Shown piece after piece: positions 35,278-39,167 of a stretch of 39,167 nucleotides of DNA (positions are counted from its first letter, which is position 1; the number at the start of each line of letters is the position of its first letter). The translations under genes and the position numbers were made by a program. Source of the stretch: Bacteroidales bacterium (GTDB lineage: Bacteria > Bacteroidota > Bacteroidia > Bacteroidales > WCHB1-69); NCBI GenBank assembly GCA_017506175.1, contig JAFVNW010000054.1, forward strand, positions 1-39,167, in the 5' to 3' direction. The notes below the pieces were generated by a model, which saw nothing but the letters and a program-made list of their open reading frames with translations, made no database searches and was not told the DNA's origin.

Positions 35278-35586
35278 TTATAGATATTTGTCGAATTTAC
35301 GATTTGAAATCAATTCCGTTTTACGCACGACAAGCGCGGTCGCGAAAACTCCCCTTCTTTTTAAGAAGGGGTGGCCGAAGGCCGGGGTAGTAATATAGGC
35401 ATCATCATTCCTTTTTGATATTAATTGTCCTGTTGAATTAATAGTCAGTCTTTCATTGTGTGAATCTCCGTCAAGCTCTATCACAATCCCGAACCTGTTA
35501 CGTGCAAAGCCTATCAACTCACTGTTTTCAAGTAGATTATGGATAAAGTGGTCTTTGATTCGAATATCGTTGATGATGGTTGTTTT
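35278..35586 (-). pseudogene. Internally deleted DUF559-like endonuclease remnant
   Basis: The minus-strand frame is open from after a TGA (35587-35589) and reads KDHFIHNLLENSELIGFARN then RFGIVIELDGDSHNER. The first part resembles the N-terminus and the second the catalytic IE-L-DG..H strand of DUF559 / very-short-patch-repair-type endonucleases, but the ~40 residues normally between FAR-N and the IELDG strand are missing. The tail (YITTPAFGHPFLKRRG) is the translation of a hairpin repeat inserted at the 3' end. No good start codon is present; TTG at 35517 is the only one near. The first ~76 bases match the right-hand arm at the window end. Confidence 0.5.
35351..35396 (+). repeat. REP-like hairpin repeat, copy 1
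   Basis: CCCCTTCTT-TTT-AAGAAGGGG followed by TGGCCGAAGGCCGGGGTAG and TAATATA. It is related to 39029-39068 (same strand) and to 35612-35655 (opposite strand), which share the CCCCTTCTA/TAGAAGGGG palindrome and the GGCGGGGTAGTAATA tail. Confidence 0.65.
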
Positions 35587-35655
35587 TCACAAGGAATTCT
35601 GATGTTTTAGTATTACTACCCCGCCTGCCGGCACCCCTTCTAGAATAGAAGGGGA
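35510..35655 (-). repeat. Left inverted repeat of the restriction-modification island
   Basis: Its reverse complement matches 39023-39167 with about eight differences and one indel over ~145 bp by eye. It includes the REP-like palindrome with GCCGGCAGGCGGGGTAGTAA, the stretch AACATCAGAATTCCTTGTGA and the 5' part of the DUF559-like remnant. The right copy may run on past the window. Confidence 0.75.
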
Positions 35656-35688
35656 AAATCCCCCGCGCGCCACGAGAGGCCACACCAA

Positions 35689-35775
35689 GTAGAGGCGAGG
35701 TGTACCTCGCCTCAGTATACCTCGCCTCAGTATACCTCACCTCAGTATACCTCGCCTCAGTGTACCTCGCCACTG
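35689..35775 (+). repeat. 15-bp tandem repeat starting from a GTAG...-type palindrome
   Basis: About five copies of TATACCTCGCCTCAG (with G/A and T/G variants) run from 35701 to 35775. The array starts from a palindrome, GAGGCGAGGT-GT-ACCTCGCCTC (35692-35713), preceded by GTA, giving GTAGAGGCG at the left end. This left end resembles the GTAGAGACG and GTAGGGACG ends of the repeats inside the neighbouring gene. Between 35656 and 35803 I see no gene; open frames here on both strands read as pentapeptide repeats (ARYTE or VYLAS) and are by-products of the array. Confidence 0.75.
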
Positions 35776-35803
35776 AATTACCCGTTGGTAAGCAGGGGTG
35801 CGG

Positions 35804-38722
35804 TTACAGGCGGGGTTTTGTCATTGCCTCGTACAGCCCGAACAGCCGTTCAACAATTTCCGATTCCTGCAAATCTTTTGGCCAACCGTAGGCGGCGAGC
35901 ACGGCCTCGTCGTTGGCGCGGTGGGCGCGACGCAGCTCAACGGGCATAAGCGTGGCGTCGTAAAGGTCAGCGAGACTGCTATCGGGGTACAGGGCGCGGG
36001 CATCGAGGATTGCTTGCGCGGTTTGTTCGATTTTTGTTTGTAGAGACGCGCCATGGCACGTCTCTACATTCGGCCACACAAAATTGTTGTAAACAATGTC
36101 TTTGCTGTAGCGATAATCGGATTTCAACCTTCCGCAAACCGCACGCATCCACGCCATATGTACGCTGCTAGTCAAAATGCCAAAATGGTATAGGGTGGCG
36201 TTGGGAATCATCTGATTAGCATCACCACAAATAATCTCGCAAGGTTCATAGCCTATTGGCAGATAAAATCTGTTTTCTGACGAATGGCGCGGAACAAGAA
36301 GATAATGCCCGTTTTCGGGTTGCCTAATTTCATCAAACAAAGTGGAAATGTCAGCCTTCTTTTGGGTTGCCGCTTTGGGGCTTGCAAGTCGAAACTCTCT
36401 AACAGATTGCACACGTTTGTATATTTCGGAACATTCTTTTATTACAGCGGGGGTCGCGCCTAAAAGCCAAATACAGTAACGTTTTTTGTTGTTGATAAAT
36501 TCTTCCGCACCTAAAAACAATTTTACTAATTTATCGGCGGAAGGATTTGTTTTTATCAATTCATCTTTTTCATTTTCAGTTAGAAACAAAAATCCCCCAT
36601 CAGTGGGTTTGTTGCCGTAAACCATTTGCGGTACATCAGATAAAGATTTTGCACGGCTTTCTATGAAAACATTCGGTGCGTCAAGCAAATAGGCATTTAT
36701 ATTTTTGGCATTTATAACGGTGCCGTCGGCATTGAAAATCCGCCGTAGGGACGCACCGCGTGCGTCCGTATTTTTCGCGTCGGCGGACGCATTCAATGCG
36801 TCCCTACACGAGAATCCCACAATCACGCAATGCACGTGCGCCTTTTGATTCGATTCGGAATCCCAACGGAACGTGCGCCACGCAAAATCTATTTGAATAT
36901 CAAATCTTTCGAATAATGGCCGCCAAATTCCCGCAACCTGCTCGCCTTGTGTTATGCTATTGGTAGAAACAAAGGCGCAGCGTGTGTTTGTGTCTTTTAT
37001 CAATTGCGCGGCCTTAAAATACCAACCTGCAACGTAATCAATCTTGCCTGCCGTTTTGTATGGTTTGCCTTTTTCGTCAACGTAAATCGAAAGAATGTCG
37101 TTTTTCTGCGCATCGTTTTGCAACGAATACCCCACAAACGGCGGATTACCAATGATATAGTCGTAATGGTGCGTTTGGCCGTCGGTTTCGGTAGTGAAGC
37201 CGCTGAACAGGCCGCCCATGGGCGCGGCGCCGTCGCCTATGGGTTTCAGCGTGGCCCAATCCATACGCAAGGCATTGCCTTCCACAATGAAAGCGTTGGT
37301 TGTTAGTGGCAGAAAATCAATATTTTGGCTCAAAATGGTTTCGGTTTCGCGAATCATTTGGCTTTCGGCAATCCACAATGCGGTTTTGGCAACGGTCACC
37401 GCGAAATCGTTGATCTCAATGCCATAAAATTGGTTGATTTTCACGTGGATAAAATCATCGAAACCCAATAGGCGCTCACCACGGTTCAAGGCAGAAATCA
37501 CACGGTTTTCCAACCGCCGAAGCGATACGTAGGTCTCTGTCAGGAAGTTGCCGCTGCCGCAAGCGGGGTCGAGAAAACGCAGTGCGCCTAATTTTTGTTG
37601 GAAATCGAACAATTTTTGGTTGCGCGCACGTAGAGACGCGCCATGGCACGTCTCTACACCACCCATAATCGATTGAAATTCCGCATTTAACCCATCCATA
37701 AACAGCGGGTCAATCACCTTGTGAATGTTCTGCACGCTCGTGTAGTGCATTCCACCACGGCGGCGCGTTTCGGGATTCAGCGTGCTCTCGAACACCGCAC
37801 CGAAGATGGTGGGCGAGATATCCGACCAGTTGAACGGGGCGCAATGGTCGCAAAGAACATCAATAATCTCGTCGGTAAAGTTCGGAATTTCAATATTTTC
37901 CGCCGCAAACAGTCCGCCATTCACGTATGGGAACGACTGCAGTTTGGTATCGTAGCGGTCGCGGTTCTCAATTTTGGTATCTAACGCCTTGAATAGCTTT
38001 ATGATAGCATCGCGTGTGTTTTCAATGGAGAATGAACGGATGTAGTCCTCGAAAGCCGTGCGAGTGGCGAAAAGTCCCGCATCTTCGGCATAAAGACAAA
38101 ACACCAGCCGTACGCACAAAATGTTGAGCGAGCGAAGGCTCTGCTCGTCTTTCGGGTTGATATACTGCTTGATAAGCGCGTCGTAGAGTTTGCCAACCAG
38201 CACGCCAGCCTGCAACGAGAGTTCTTCCTCGCGCCGCAGATAGTCGTGACGCGCATCGGCAAGAAATTGTAGCCTATAATGCTCTTTTTCAAGGTCTTTC
38301 AAGAAGATTTGTTCGGGTTCGCTGCCCGGTTTTTCAAGGTCATAAACCAGAAATTCCTGAAAATTGCAAACCACAATCCAACGCGGCCGCAGCGAGTTTG
38401 GCATTTCATCGGCATAGCGTTTGGCCTGTTCGTAAGGCGTGAGCACGCTGCCGTCGCTCTGCTCGTAGGCGCGGTGCAGGTCAACCTTTGCACCTTTCTG
38501 TTCAATAAGAACCTTTGTATCAGGAATATACGCATCGATAAACGACGTGTGCGATAGTTTCACACGTTTTTCAAATTCAATGTATTTCGCAGGATTGCCA
38601 ATGCCTAAAACATTCTGTAACAAGTCAATCCAGAAACGCGAAGTCTCCTGCTTCTCATCGCCTTTGTCCGCCCAAAATTCGGCAAACGCAGCGGCAGCCT
38701 TTGTTTGTTCGGTTGGTGTCAT
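35804..38722 (-). CDS. MmeI-like single-chain type II restriction-modification enzyme (N6-adenine)
   Basis: A 972-aa bifunctional enzyme of the MmeI / type IIL group. The N-terminal nuclease part shows a PD-ExK-like site: Asp63 (SFIDAYIPDTK) and Glu74-Gln-Lys76 (LIEQKG). A helical spacer (~160-340) leads to the methylase: motif I FLDPACGSGNF at ~383-393 and motif IV NPPF at 526-529 (IIGNPPFVGYS), typical of N6-adenine methyltransferases. The target-recognition region (~700-880) includes RYCIWL, HYLLVPRHSSENRFYLPIGY and NNFVWP. Family members cut about 20 bases from the site and methylate one strand for protection. Three short palindromic repeats are read in frame (residues ~356-365, ~639-660, ~886-895); none falls on a catalytic motif. 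It has its own promoter, no other restriction-modification gene beside it, and inverted repeats on both sides. Confidence 0.88.
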   Translation of the reverse strand: MTPTEQTKAAAAFAEFWADKGDEKQETSRFWIDLLQNVLGIGNPAKYIEFEKRVKLSHTSFIDAYIPDTKVLIEQKGAKVDLHRAYEQSDGSVLTPYEQAKRYADEMPNSLRPRWIVVCNFQEFLVYDLEKPGSEPEQIFLKDLEKEHYRLQFLADARHDYLRREEELSLQAGVLVGKLYDALIKQYINPKDEQSLRSLNILCVRLVFCLYAEDAGLFATRTAFEDYIRSFSIENTRDAIIKLFKALDTKIENRDRYDTKLQSFPYVNGGLFAAENIEIPNFTDEIIDVLCDHCAPFNWSDISPTIFGAVFESTLNPETRRRGGMHYTSVQNIHKVIDPLFMDGLNAEFQSIMGGVETCHGASLRARNQKLFDFQQKLGALRFLDPACGSGNFLTETYVSLRRLENRVISALNRGERLLGFDDFIHVKINQFYGIEINDFAVTVAKTALWIAESQMIRETETILSQNIDFLPLTTNAFIVEGNALRMDWATLKPIGDGAAPMGGLFSGFTTETDGQTHHYDYIIGNPPFVGYSLQNDAQKNDILSIYVDEKGKPYKTAGKIDYVAGWYFKAAQLIKDTNTRCAFVSTNSITQGEQVAGIWRPLFERFDIQIDFAWRTFRWDSESNQKAHVHCVIVGFSCRDALNASADAKNTDARGASLRRIFNADGTVINAKNINAYLLDAPNVFIESRAKSLSDVPQMVYGNKPTDGGFLFLTENEKDELIKTNPSADKLVKLFLGAEEFINNKKRYCIWLLGATPAVIKECSEIYKRVQSVREFRLASPKAATQKKADISTLFDEIRQPENGHYLLVPRHSSENRFYLPIGYEPCEIICGDANQMIPNATLYHFGILTSSVHMAWMRAVCGRLKSDYRYSKDIVYNNFVWPNVETCHGASLQTKIEQTAQAILDARALYPDSSLADLYDATLMPVELRRAHRANDEAVLAAYGWPKDLQESEIVERLFGLYEAMTKPRL
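36040..36067 (-). repeat. In-frame palindromic element A (28 bp)
   Basis: GTAGAGACG...CGTCTCTAC with a centre of GCCATGGC; only one base pair of the palindrome is mismatched. It is identical in all 28 bases to the element at 37630-37657. On the minus strand it encodes V-E-T-C-H-G-A-S-L within the C-terminal region of the MmeI-like enzyme, in the same phase as its twin. Confidence 0.9.
36745..36807 (-). repeat. In-frame composite palindromic element (63 bp)
   Basis: The ends GTAGGGACGC and GCGTCCCTAC are perfect inverted repeats. Inside are two smaller hairpins: GGACGCA/TGCGTCC at 36749-36767 and GGACGCATT/AATGCGTCC at 36785-36803. The length, 63 bp, is a multiple of three. On the minus strand it encodes about 21 residues (RDALNASADAKNTDARGASL) between the methylase and the recognition region. 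Confidence 0.85.
37630..37657 (-). repeat. In-frame palindromic element B (28 bp)
   Basis: An exact copy of the element at 36040-36067, encoding V-E-T-C-H-G-A-S-L in the same phase, 29 residues before methylase motif I of the same gene. Confidence 0.9.
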
Positions 38723-38904: not shown

Positions 38905-39014
38905 TGCGATAAATTCAGGTGTATAAATATATCAGTCAAGCGATTTGCTTTGTTGCTTGGTCTGGCCTCTCGTGGCGAGATGCTTTCTTACACTGGCACT
39001 GCAGTGCCAGCGCG
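38905..39014 (+). repeat. Interspersed repeat, well-preserved copy
   Basis: Contains the block AGTCAAGCGATTTGCTTTG, a TCTCG-TGG-CGAGA hairpin and the perfect 18-bp palindrome CTGGCACTGCAGTGCCAG (38993-39010). The minus strand of 151-260 is a diverged copy. The preceding ACTACTGTTGCGATAA (38897-38912) also occurs at 35224-35239 on the same strand. Confidence 0.75.
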
Positions 39015-39022
39015 GTGGATAT

Positions 39023-39167
39023 TTCCCTTCTATTCTAGAAGGGGTGCCGGCAGGCGGGGTAGTAATATAAAACATCAGAATTCCTTGTGAAAAACAACCA
39101 TCATCAATGATATTTGAATCAAAGACCACTATATTCATAATCTACTTGAAAACAGCGAGTTGACAGG
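39023..39167 (+). repeat. Right inverted repeat of the restriction-modification island (runs off the window)
   Basis: The counterpart of 35510-35655 in the opposite orientation, including the CCTTCTA-TTC-TAGAAGG hairpin, GGGTGCCGGCAGGCGGGGTA and the start of a DUF559-like frame. It meets the window edge, so its right limit is not seen. Confidence 0.75.
39118..39167 (+). CDS. Partial DUF559-like endonuclease gene (5' fragment)
   Basis: After an in-frame TGA at 39115-39117 the plus strand reads IKDHYIHNLLENSEL, matching the first residues of the remnant at 35278-35586 and running off the window. There is no ATG in this frame within view; it could be an intact gene with an unusual start, or another remnant. 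Confidence 0.4.
   Translation, partial: MKDHYIHNLLENSELT

Follow-up and report, generated by a model that had tools for sequence, protein, structure and literature searches.

How a mobile palindrome comes to lie three times, in frame, inside an open restriction gene is the question raised by one locus of a Bacteroidales bacterium of the WCHB1-69 lineage. The stretch of DNA analysed here, hereafter the window, is 39,167 nucleotides long and is one entire contig (JAFVNW010000054.1; C12) of a 2.46 Mb, 99-contig genome (GCA_017506175.1). On its reverse strand, an open frame of 972 amino acids (aa) at 35804..38722 encodes an MmeI-like type IIG restriction-methyltransferase, which carries two copies of a 28-bp palindrome with GTAG at its end and one 63-bp element built of two hairpins. 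Very probably, GTAG palindromes of this kind are mobilised in trans and survive in the linkers between protein domains; in relatives whole genes for REP-associated tyrosine transposases (RAYTs; REP, repetitive extragenic palindrome) are nested in frame. Loci, genomes and contigs are referred to below by L, G and C numbers.

The host gene is recognised by Pfam, PADLOC and structural comparison. A Pfam scan of the protein finds five MmeI domains (N-terminal, helical, methyltransferase, target recognition domain (TRD) and C-terminal), the PADLOC type IIG profile matches residues 2-970 at 1087.7 bits, and the MmeI structure 5hr4 aligns with residues 8-968 (E=1e-171), its conserved regions following in the same order over nearly the full length. 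In an alignment of 29 homologues, E74, K76, most of 383-394 and N526-P527-P528 are invariant and F529 is nearly so; we take these to be the nuclease motif (E74/K76), motif I (383-394) and motif IV (N526-P527-P528-F529). The ratio of non-synonymous to synonymous substitution (dN/dS) of the gene against six relatives is 0.05-0.22, the lowest value (against L025) having a near-saturated dS, and purifying selection acts on the gene. Restriction and methylation by the enzyme are predicted. Inverted arms at 35510-35668 and 39010-39167 (100 nt at 94%, 63 nt at 92%) bracket the gene and are perhaps a mobile repeat carrying it, and a 15-bp tandem unit in four overlapping registers lies beside it at 35700-35778.

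As mapped by Pfam borders and the 5hr4 alignment, all three elements fall between domains. The first 28-mer (37630..37657, reverse strand; residues 356-365) sits just ahead of the methyltransferase domain, whose match begins at 366; the 63-bp element (36745..36807, reverse strand; residues 639-660) lies between the methyltransferase (to 638) and the TRD (from 681); and the second 28-mer (36040..36067, reverse strand; residues 886-895) stands exactly between the TRD (to 885) and the C-terminal domain (from 896). In the alignment with 5hr4, it is MmeI that has gaps, of 12, 10 (5+5) and 4 residues, at these sites. The original prediction, made from the sequence by eye of a model, that the two identical 28-mers are read in the same phase as VETCHGASL, that the 63-bp element is read in frame to end in ...DARGASL, and that all three lie between domains, holds in coordinates, sequence and phase. 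In the 63-mer a GTAG tag (36745-36748) is followed by a hairpin (36749..36767; stem 8, loop 3), a 17-bp spacer, a second hairpin (36785..36803; stem 7, loop 5) and a CTAC tag (36804-36807). It thus consists of two GTAG-tagged hairpins in inverted order, is REPIN-like, and, with an outer unpaired GTAG on both hairpins, has the form of a GTAG REP. The 28-mer differs from the GTAG REPs of Di Nocera, De Gregorio and Rocco (2013; PMC3733652), as these are characterised in the relevant parts of that paper, in that its GTAG is paired with CTAC. The tetranucleotide is present at the element end, by search pattern, and 13 of 14 pairs form, leaving no unpaired GTAG at one hairpin end; the 28-mer is therefore classed as REP-like and not as a strict GTAG REP. 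Near-identical 63-mers occur at the matching gene position in L025 and L026, and the window's own genome holds one full copy and three other places with one similar hairpin.

Clean insertions with perfectly joining flanks, which had also been expected, were not found. In homologues the commonest element-free length of the three stretches is 69, 75 and 57 nt, and the window gene exceeds this by only 18, 42 and 12 nt with elements of 28, 63 and 28 nt. Since the net gain in length is smaller than the element, native loop sequence has been lost or replaced.

The palindrome is a repeated element of the genome. The pattern GTAGRGRCGN10CGYCYCTAC occurs at 27 places in the window's own genome and at none in a reversed-pattern control, which excludes chance; 28 places are found when cores of 4-34 bases are allowed, and a looser pattern gives 4 to 48 copies in seven relatives. 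The notion of a small mobile palindrome with a tolerated phase that has inserted repeatedly is supported by these 27 copies and by the filled loops of homologues described below, and homologues without the palindromes carry other residues at the three places. Ten of the 27 28-mers lie in frame within Pfam-matched genes: two in this gene, four in type IX secretion system (T9SS) sorting domains, and one each in LacZ, in an EcoRI-type methylase (its tail, behind the domain), in a sigma70/DUF2807 frame and in a RAYT. All ten use the phase that starts with codon GTA; the second open phase is unused among them, and a TAG stop would arise in the third. Frames that match no Pfam family, left out of the count of ten, carry copies in both open phases, and L131, with an element at residue 10, was excluded because the true start may lie downstream. 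Further 28-mers of this genome stand outside recognised genes.

Some of these copies deserve separate mention. The same 28-mer is at the same place in the four T9SS C-terminal sorting domains (L118, two in L127, and L132), with the flank also in L122, and these four copies may be one event. In L126 (1904-3793), a GTAG 28-mer separates sigma-70 domains from a DUF2807 domain within a single frame of 629 aa, and two genes may have been fused through the palindrome. An apparent HsdS start (by eye) near the end of contig C71 (L119, 1-600) contains repeated units carrying GTAG 28-mers, and a 28-mer with the core CACGGCCGTG was found in seven stretches (L243-L249) on six IMG/VR viral contigs.

Are the same three loops filled in other members of the enzyme family? 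Homologues were drawn from 80 loci and a further thirty from 104 same-family genomes, giving 109 distinct aligned frames, some of them pieces of one gene. These frames contain 33 hairpins scoring at least 12; two codon shuffles yield 3.5 on average. Within the aligned coding part, 18 of 29 such hairpins lie in the three loops, which make up 6% of the length, although homologues and palindromes are related by descent, so that these counts are not independent and a binomial on the loop hairpins is a guide only. GTAG elements number 19 in 12 of the 109 frames, with 16 of the 19 in the three loops and phases of 14, 5 and 0, and other palindromes fill the same loops, for example in L033, L034, L028 and L071.

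At site 1, the first of the three, the window gene, L030, L044, L024 and L145 have identical arms around four different cores: among the distinct versions 0 of 18 arm bases differ, against 4 to 9 of 10 core bases, and 13-14 of 14 positions pair. Such constancy of the arms, together with the confinement of all ten in-gene copies of the own genome to one of two open phases, is what would be expected if the palindromes were kept for a function in the gene, as an mRNA hairpin tuning expression or as a useful peptide linker, and were not tolerated passengers. We regard this as very unlikely. Many homologues have no palindrome and yet keep the conserved residues, the same 28-mers occur in unrelated genes and outside recognised ones, and the core variants of site 1 are also present elsewhere in the genomes, so that insertion of, or replacement by, a mobile copy fits better than compensatory change. 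Site 1 would then be a case of recurrent insertion or replacement in place.

A cognate transposase is present in the same genome. L124, a 206-aa frame at the end of contig C8, is a RAYT (NF047646, 80.4 bits; cut-off 80) with the motifs MPNHLH and EYIINNP, read by eye as HUH and catalytic tyrosine, and one 28-mer lies in frame inside it, while two others follow its last codon at distances of 76 and 226 bp. The region behind it, near the contig end (4615-4888), holds repeated units carrying GTAG 28-mers. Matches to L124 were found in 12 of 18 genomes searched. Twenty RAYT loci were obtained, of which 17 were readable by the motif script and three unreadable ones were left out; nine of the 17 (L256 and L258 being near-copies) have GTAG palindromes inside the frame or at most 500 bp away. 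At seven of these loci palindromes lie inside the frame, eight in all, seven in the GTA phase and one, that of L254, in the next. This last locus, from the same-family genome G039, has the window's exact 28-mer twice ahead of the RAYT frame (at 126 and 78 bp) and once after it (at 8 bp). Among 17 RAYT loci from a separate 13-genome search, GTAG arms were seen at two (L180, L185), some 900-1250 bp off, and none nearer. The Y1 transposase L016, the only own-genome match of the Pfam search, was considered as the mover and dropped, as its locus has no GTAG arms.

These palindromes beside RAYT genes also bear on whether the elements spread by transposition or by recombination, with gene conversion swapping the cores and domain shuffling carrying the palindromes. 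The right flanks of site 1 are alike in the window gene, L030 and L024 although the cores differ, and the four T9SS copies have host sequence in common on one side, both as recombination would predict. It would leave unexplained why the window's own two 28-mers have unrelated flanks, why the family also reaches LacZ, a methylase, a RAYT and stretches outside recognised genes, and why palindromes flank RAYT genes; as the general route of spread, recombination is therefore unlikely, though it deserves some weight.

In some relatives, the landed unit appears to be a whole transposase gene. L032, whose best segment is 86% identical to the window gene, has a RAYT gene at the exact site of the 63-mer, in a frame that runs for 1230 aa without a stop from MmeI_N through MmeI_C. 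Searches of 393 genomes of the order gave 16 RAYT matches, five in frames of 881-1294 aa, and with a second query nine matches, four in frames of 990-1294 aa in the same four genomes. In 395 genomes of the phylum there were 10 matches (seven in frames of 468-1332 aa), in 13 genomes 16 matches (four in frames of 1290, 1251, 649 and 416 aa), and in 104 genomes 12 matches (longest frames 530 and 518 aa). With duplicates removed, 43 RAYT-bearing frames remain, 17 of them of at least 450 aa (L168 and L169 fall below); as the searches started from RAYTs already nested in restriction genes, the proportion found nested does not apply to RAYTs at large. Hosts were not selected for in these searches, but insertions in antisense or out of frame would not appear as long frames.

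Host sequence stands on both sides of the RAYT in 13 of the 17 long frames, and all 13 hosts look like restriction or anti-phage proteins (by Pfam, and by PADLOC on seven of the 13). They comprise the MmeI-like L032, the type IIG enzymes L228, L229, L230, L233 and L235, the ISP enzyme L234, HsdR in L236 and L238, DUF1156/HmaB in L239, L240 and L241 (the assignment of L239 resting on its alignment with L241), and a PLD/SNF2 helicase, L231, which has 194 aa behind the RAYT with no separate Pfam match and falls below the NCBI anti-phage cut-offs. The other four were not counted as internal: L237 (HsdR, contig end; L220/L237), L232 (HsdR), L167 (RAYT before Fic) and L170/L242 (RAYT behind AnmK). 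Fusions of RAYT frames ahead of a Fic domain (L167, L168, L192) or behind AnmK (L170/L242) are end fusions. Reciprocal empty sites are found among the nested hosts: L228 is without the insert of L229, L230 and L235, and L235 without that of L228; L239 and L241 are without the insert of L240, and L240 without theirs. In L233, peptides resembling the RAYT-flanking palindromes recur (by eye) at three other places in the frame.

It might be objected that nested RAYT frames are decaying insertions, still open by chance. In L230 and L235 a piece of the host lies in another frame behind the nested frame, in L234 the host gene is split with its front part in another frame (ISP front recognised by eye), in L232 the HsdR host ends early behind the RAYT with no host piece seen downstream, and L235 has a histidine at the position of the catalytic tyrosine. 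Nevertheless, six of the 13 frames (L032, L231, L233, L238, L240, L241) run from stop to stop within the contig with the host whole on both sides, a further four running off a contig end (L228, L229, L236, L239), and the nested RAYTs keep HUH in 17 of 17 cases and the tyrosine in 16 of 17. PF01797 is above its cut-off in all nested frames scanned, and NF047646 is above in L233, L240 and L241, as it is in L124, and below in L032, L231, L234, L235 and L238. For nested RAYTs, dN/dS is 0.19, 0.11 and 0.12 in three pairs that belong to a single HsdR group, and the pair L229/L235 gives 0.087 at a near-saturated dS; in two of the HsdR pairs (L238/L236, L238/L220) the host gives 0.14 and 0.13 against 0.19 and 0.11 for the RAYT. 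Decay may account for individual frames, and we think it improbable as the explanation of the nested state.

A single origin of that state was rejected, since at least eight label changes are required on a tree of 40 RAYTs (label 'nested' for frames of at least 450 aa, 17 rows; poor rows L187, L191 and the second L207 frame dropped). General co-inheritance of RAYT and host was rejected as well: the RAYTs of L229/L200 diverge less than their hosts, and those of L239/L241 more.

We thus favour an explanation in which the elements would be non-autonomous, GTAG-type REP-like palindromes moved in trans by a RAYT of the HUH/Y1 kind. Palindromes and whole units would land widely, and the survivors within genes would be those whose net change keeps the frame, whose phase keeps the TAG of GTAG from being read as a codon (as two of the three do on each strand), and whose roughly ten extra residues are tolerated, that is, those in interdomain linkers. 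The MmeI-like enzyme would offer three such linkers, refilled repeatedly in relatives by GTAG and other families. In some relatives a complete RAYT gene, drawn from other RAYT lineages and accompanied by palindromes of its own, would have been the landing unit; lacking a stop, it would be translated as an additional domain within a restriction or anti-phage-like protein. Both transposition by the RAYT and functioning of the decorated enzymes are what we infer. Tolerance, horizontal spread and targeting are candidate causes of the nesting of such units in defence genes.

Besides the broken hosts and the shared descent already described, several points weigh against this explanation. No transposition event was observed; the junctions at the window sites are not clean, no target duplication was found there, and insertion with deletion is indistinguishable from replacement. 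Six of the 18 genomes have no match to L124 at E<=1e-10, including G002 with its 44 palindrome copies, and at eight of the 17 readable loci no such palindrome stands near the RAYT. L124 itself was missed by the Pfam search and found through its palindrome, and the 80-locus search used six short peptides, two of which adjoin sites 1 and 3. Finally, the nested RAYT lineages differ from the lineage that carries the GTAG 28-mers, so that the two are linked by anatomy and a shared site.

How much of this is new? Rickettsia palindromic elements, named as the precedent in the original prediction, are mobile palindromes that survive in frame in proteins, and to that extent the parallel stands; they are presumably another sequence family than the window palindromes. 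Inteins and IStrons are also mobile elements tolerated inside coding genes; no sign of splicing was noticed here, no splicing test having been aimed at it, and the elements appear to be tolerated because their frame is open and they lie in a linker. In REPIN/REPtron and RAYT systems, RAYTs are reportedly separate genes. The likeness to REPIN/REPtron systems lies in the 63-bp element, an inverted REP pair, and in RAYTs flanked by their own palindromes; the difference from what is said of their RAYTs is that several RAYTs here lie without a stop inside another gene's frame. The GTAG REP/RAYT system is a closer precedent than Rickettsia, as in-frame intragenic copies have been published, sometimes two per gene (uvrA, uvrB), in the parts of the work that concern us (Di Nocera, De Gregorio, Rocco 2013; PMC3733652). 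According to those parts, GTAG REPs and the window elements have in common GTAG ends, palindromes of 20-40 bp, dimers, RAYT association and intragenic copies; replication and repair genes are stressed, and the Rickettsia elements RPE-4 and RPE-6 are assigned to the CGTC type, beside which no transposase was found (PMC3733652). The words 'restriction' and 'methylase' are absent from the main text, the target-gene list sitting in Additional file 3, and no nested RAYT is described in the relevant parts (PMC3733652). Given in-gene GTAG REPs as known from those parts, the window finding itself is a variant. A literature search of open-licence papers gave, among the matches listed, none that deals with in-frame nesting of RAYTs in restriction or defence genes, and a search for the arm sequence gave, among the matches listed, titles that look unrelated. 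The new part would be the stopless RAYT genes nested in frame in restriction and anti-phage-like genes of relatives.

On balance we lean, if only slightly, towards a broader possibility: a widespread REP-transposase element resident, as an internal domain in frame, in restriction-modification and other anti-phage genes. Such an element, a stopless transposase with in-frame palindromes, would move from linker to linker of unrelated defence enzymes; palindrome-only copies like those of the window would be its small forms, and horizontally spread defence genes its vehicle. Because the same three linkers are refilled within one enzyme family, a single protein allows the study of both tolerance to insertion and targeting by the transposase. 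For annotation, frames of about 1000-1300 aa with an internal transposase are not necessarily broken genes or misassemblies. RAYTs are usually seen as separate genes, and transposases are not expected inside restriction and anti-phage genes; a nested existence would be a new RAYT life style and would link transposons with anti-phage systems in a new way.

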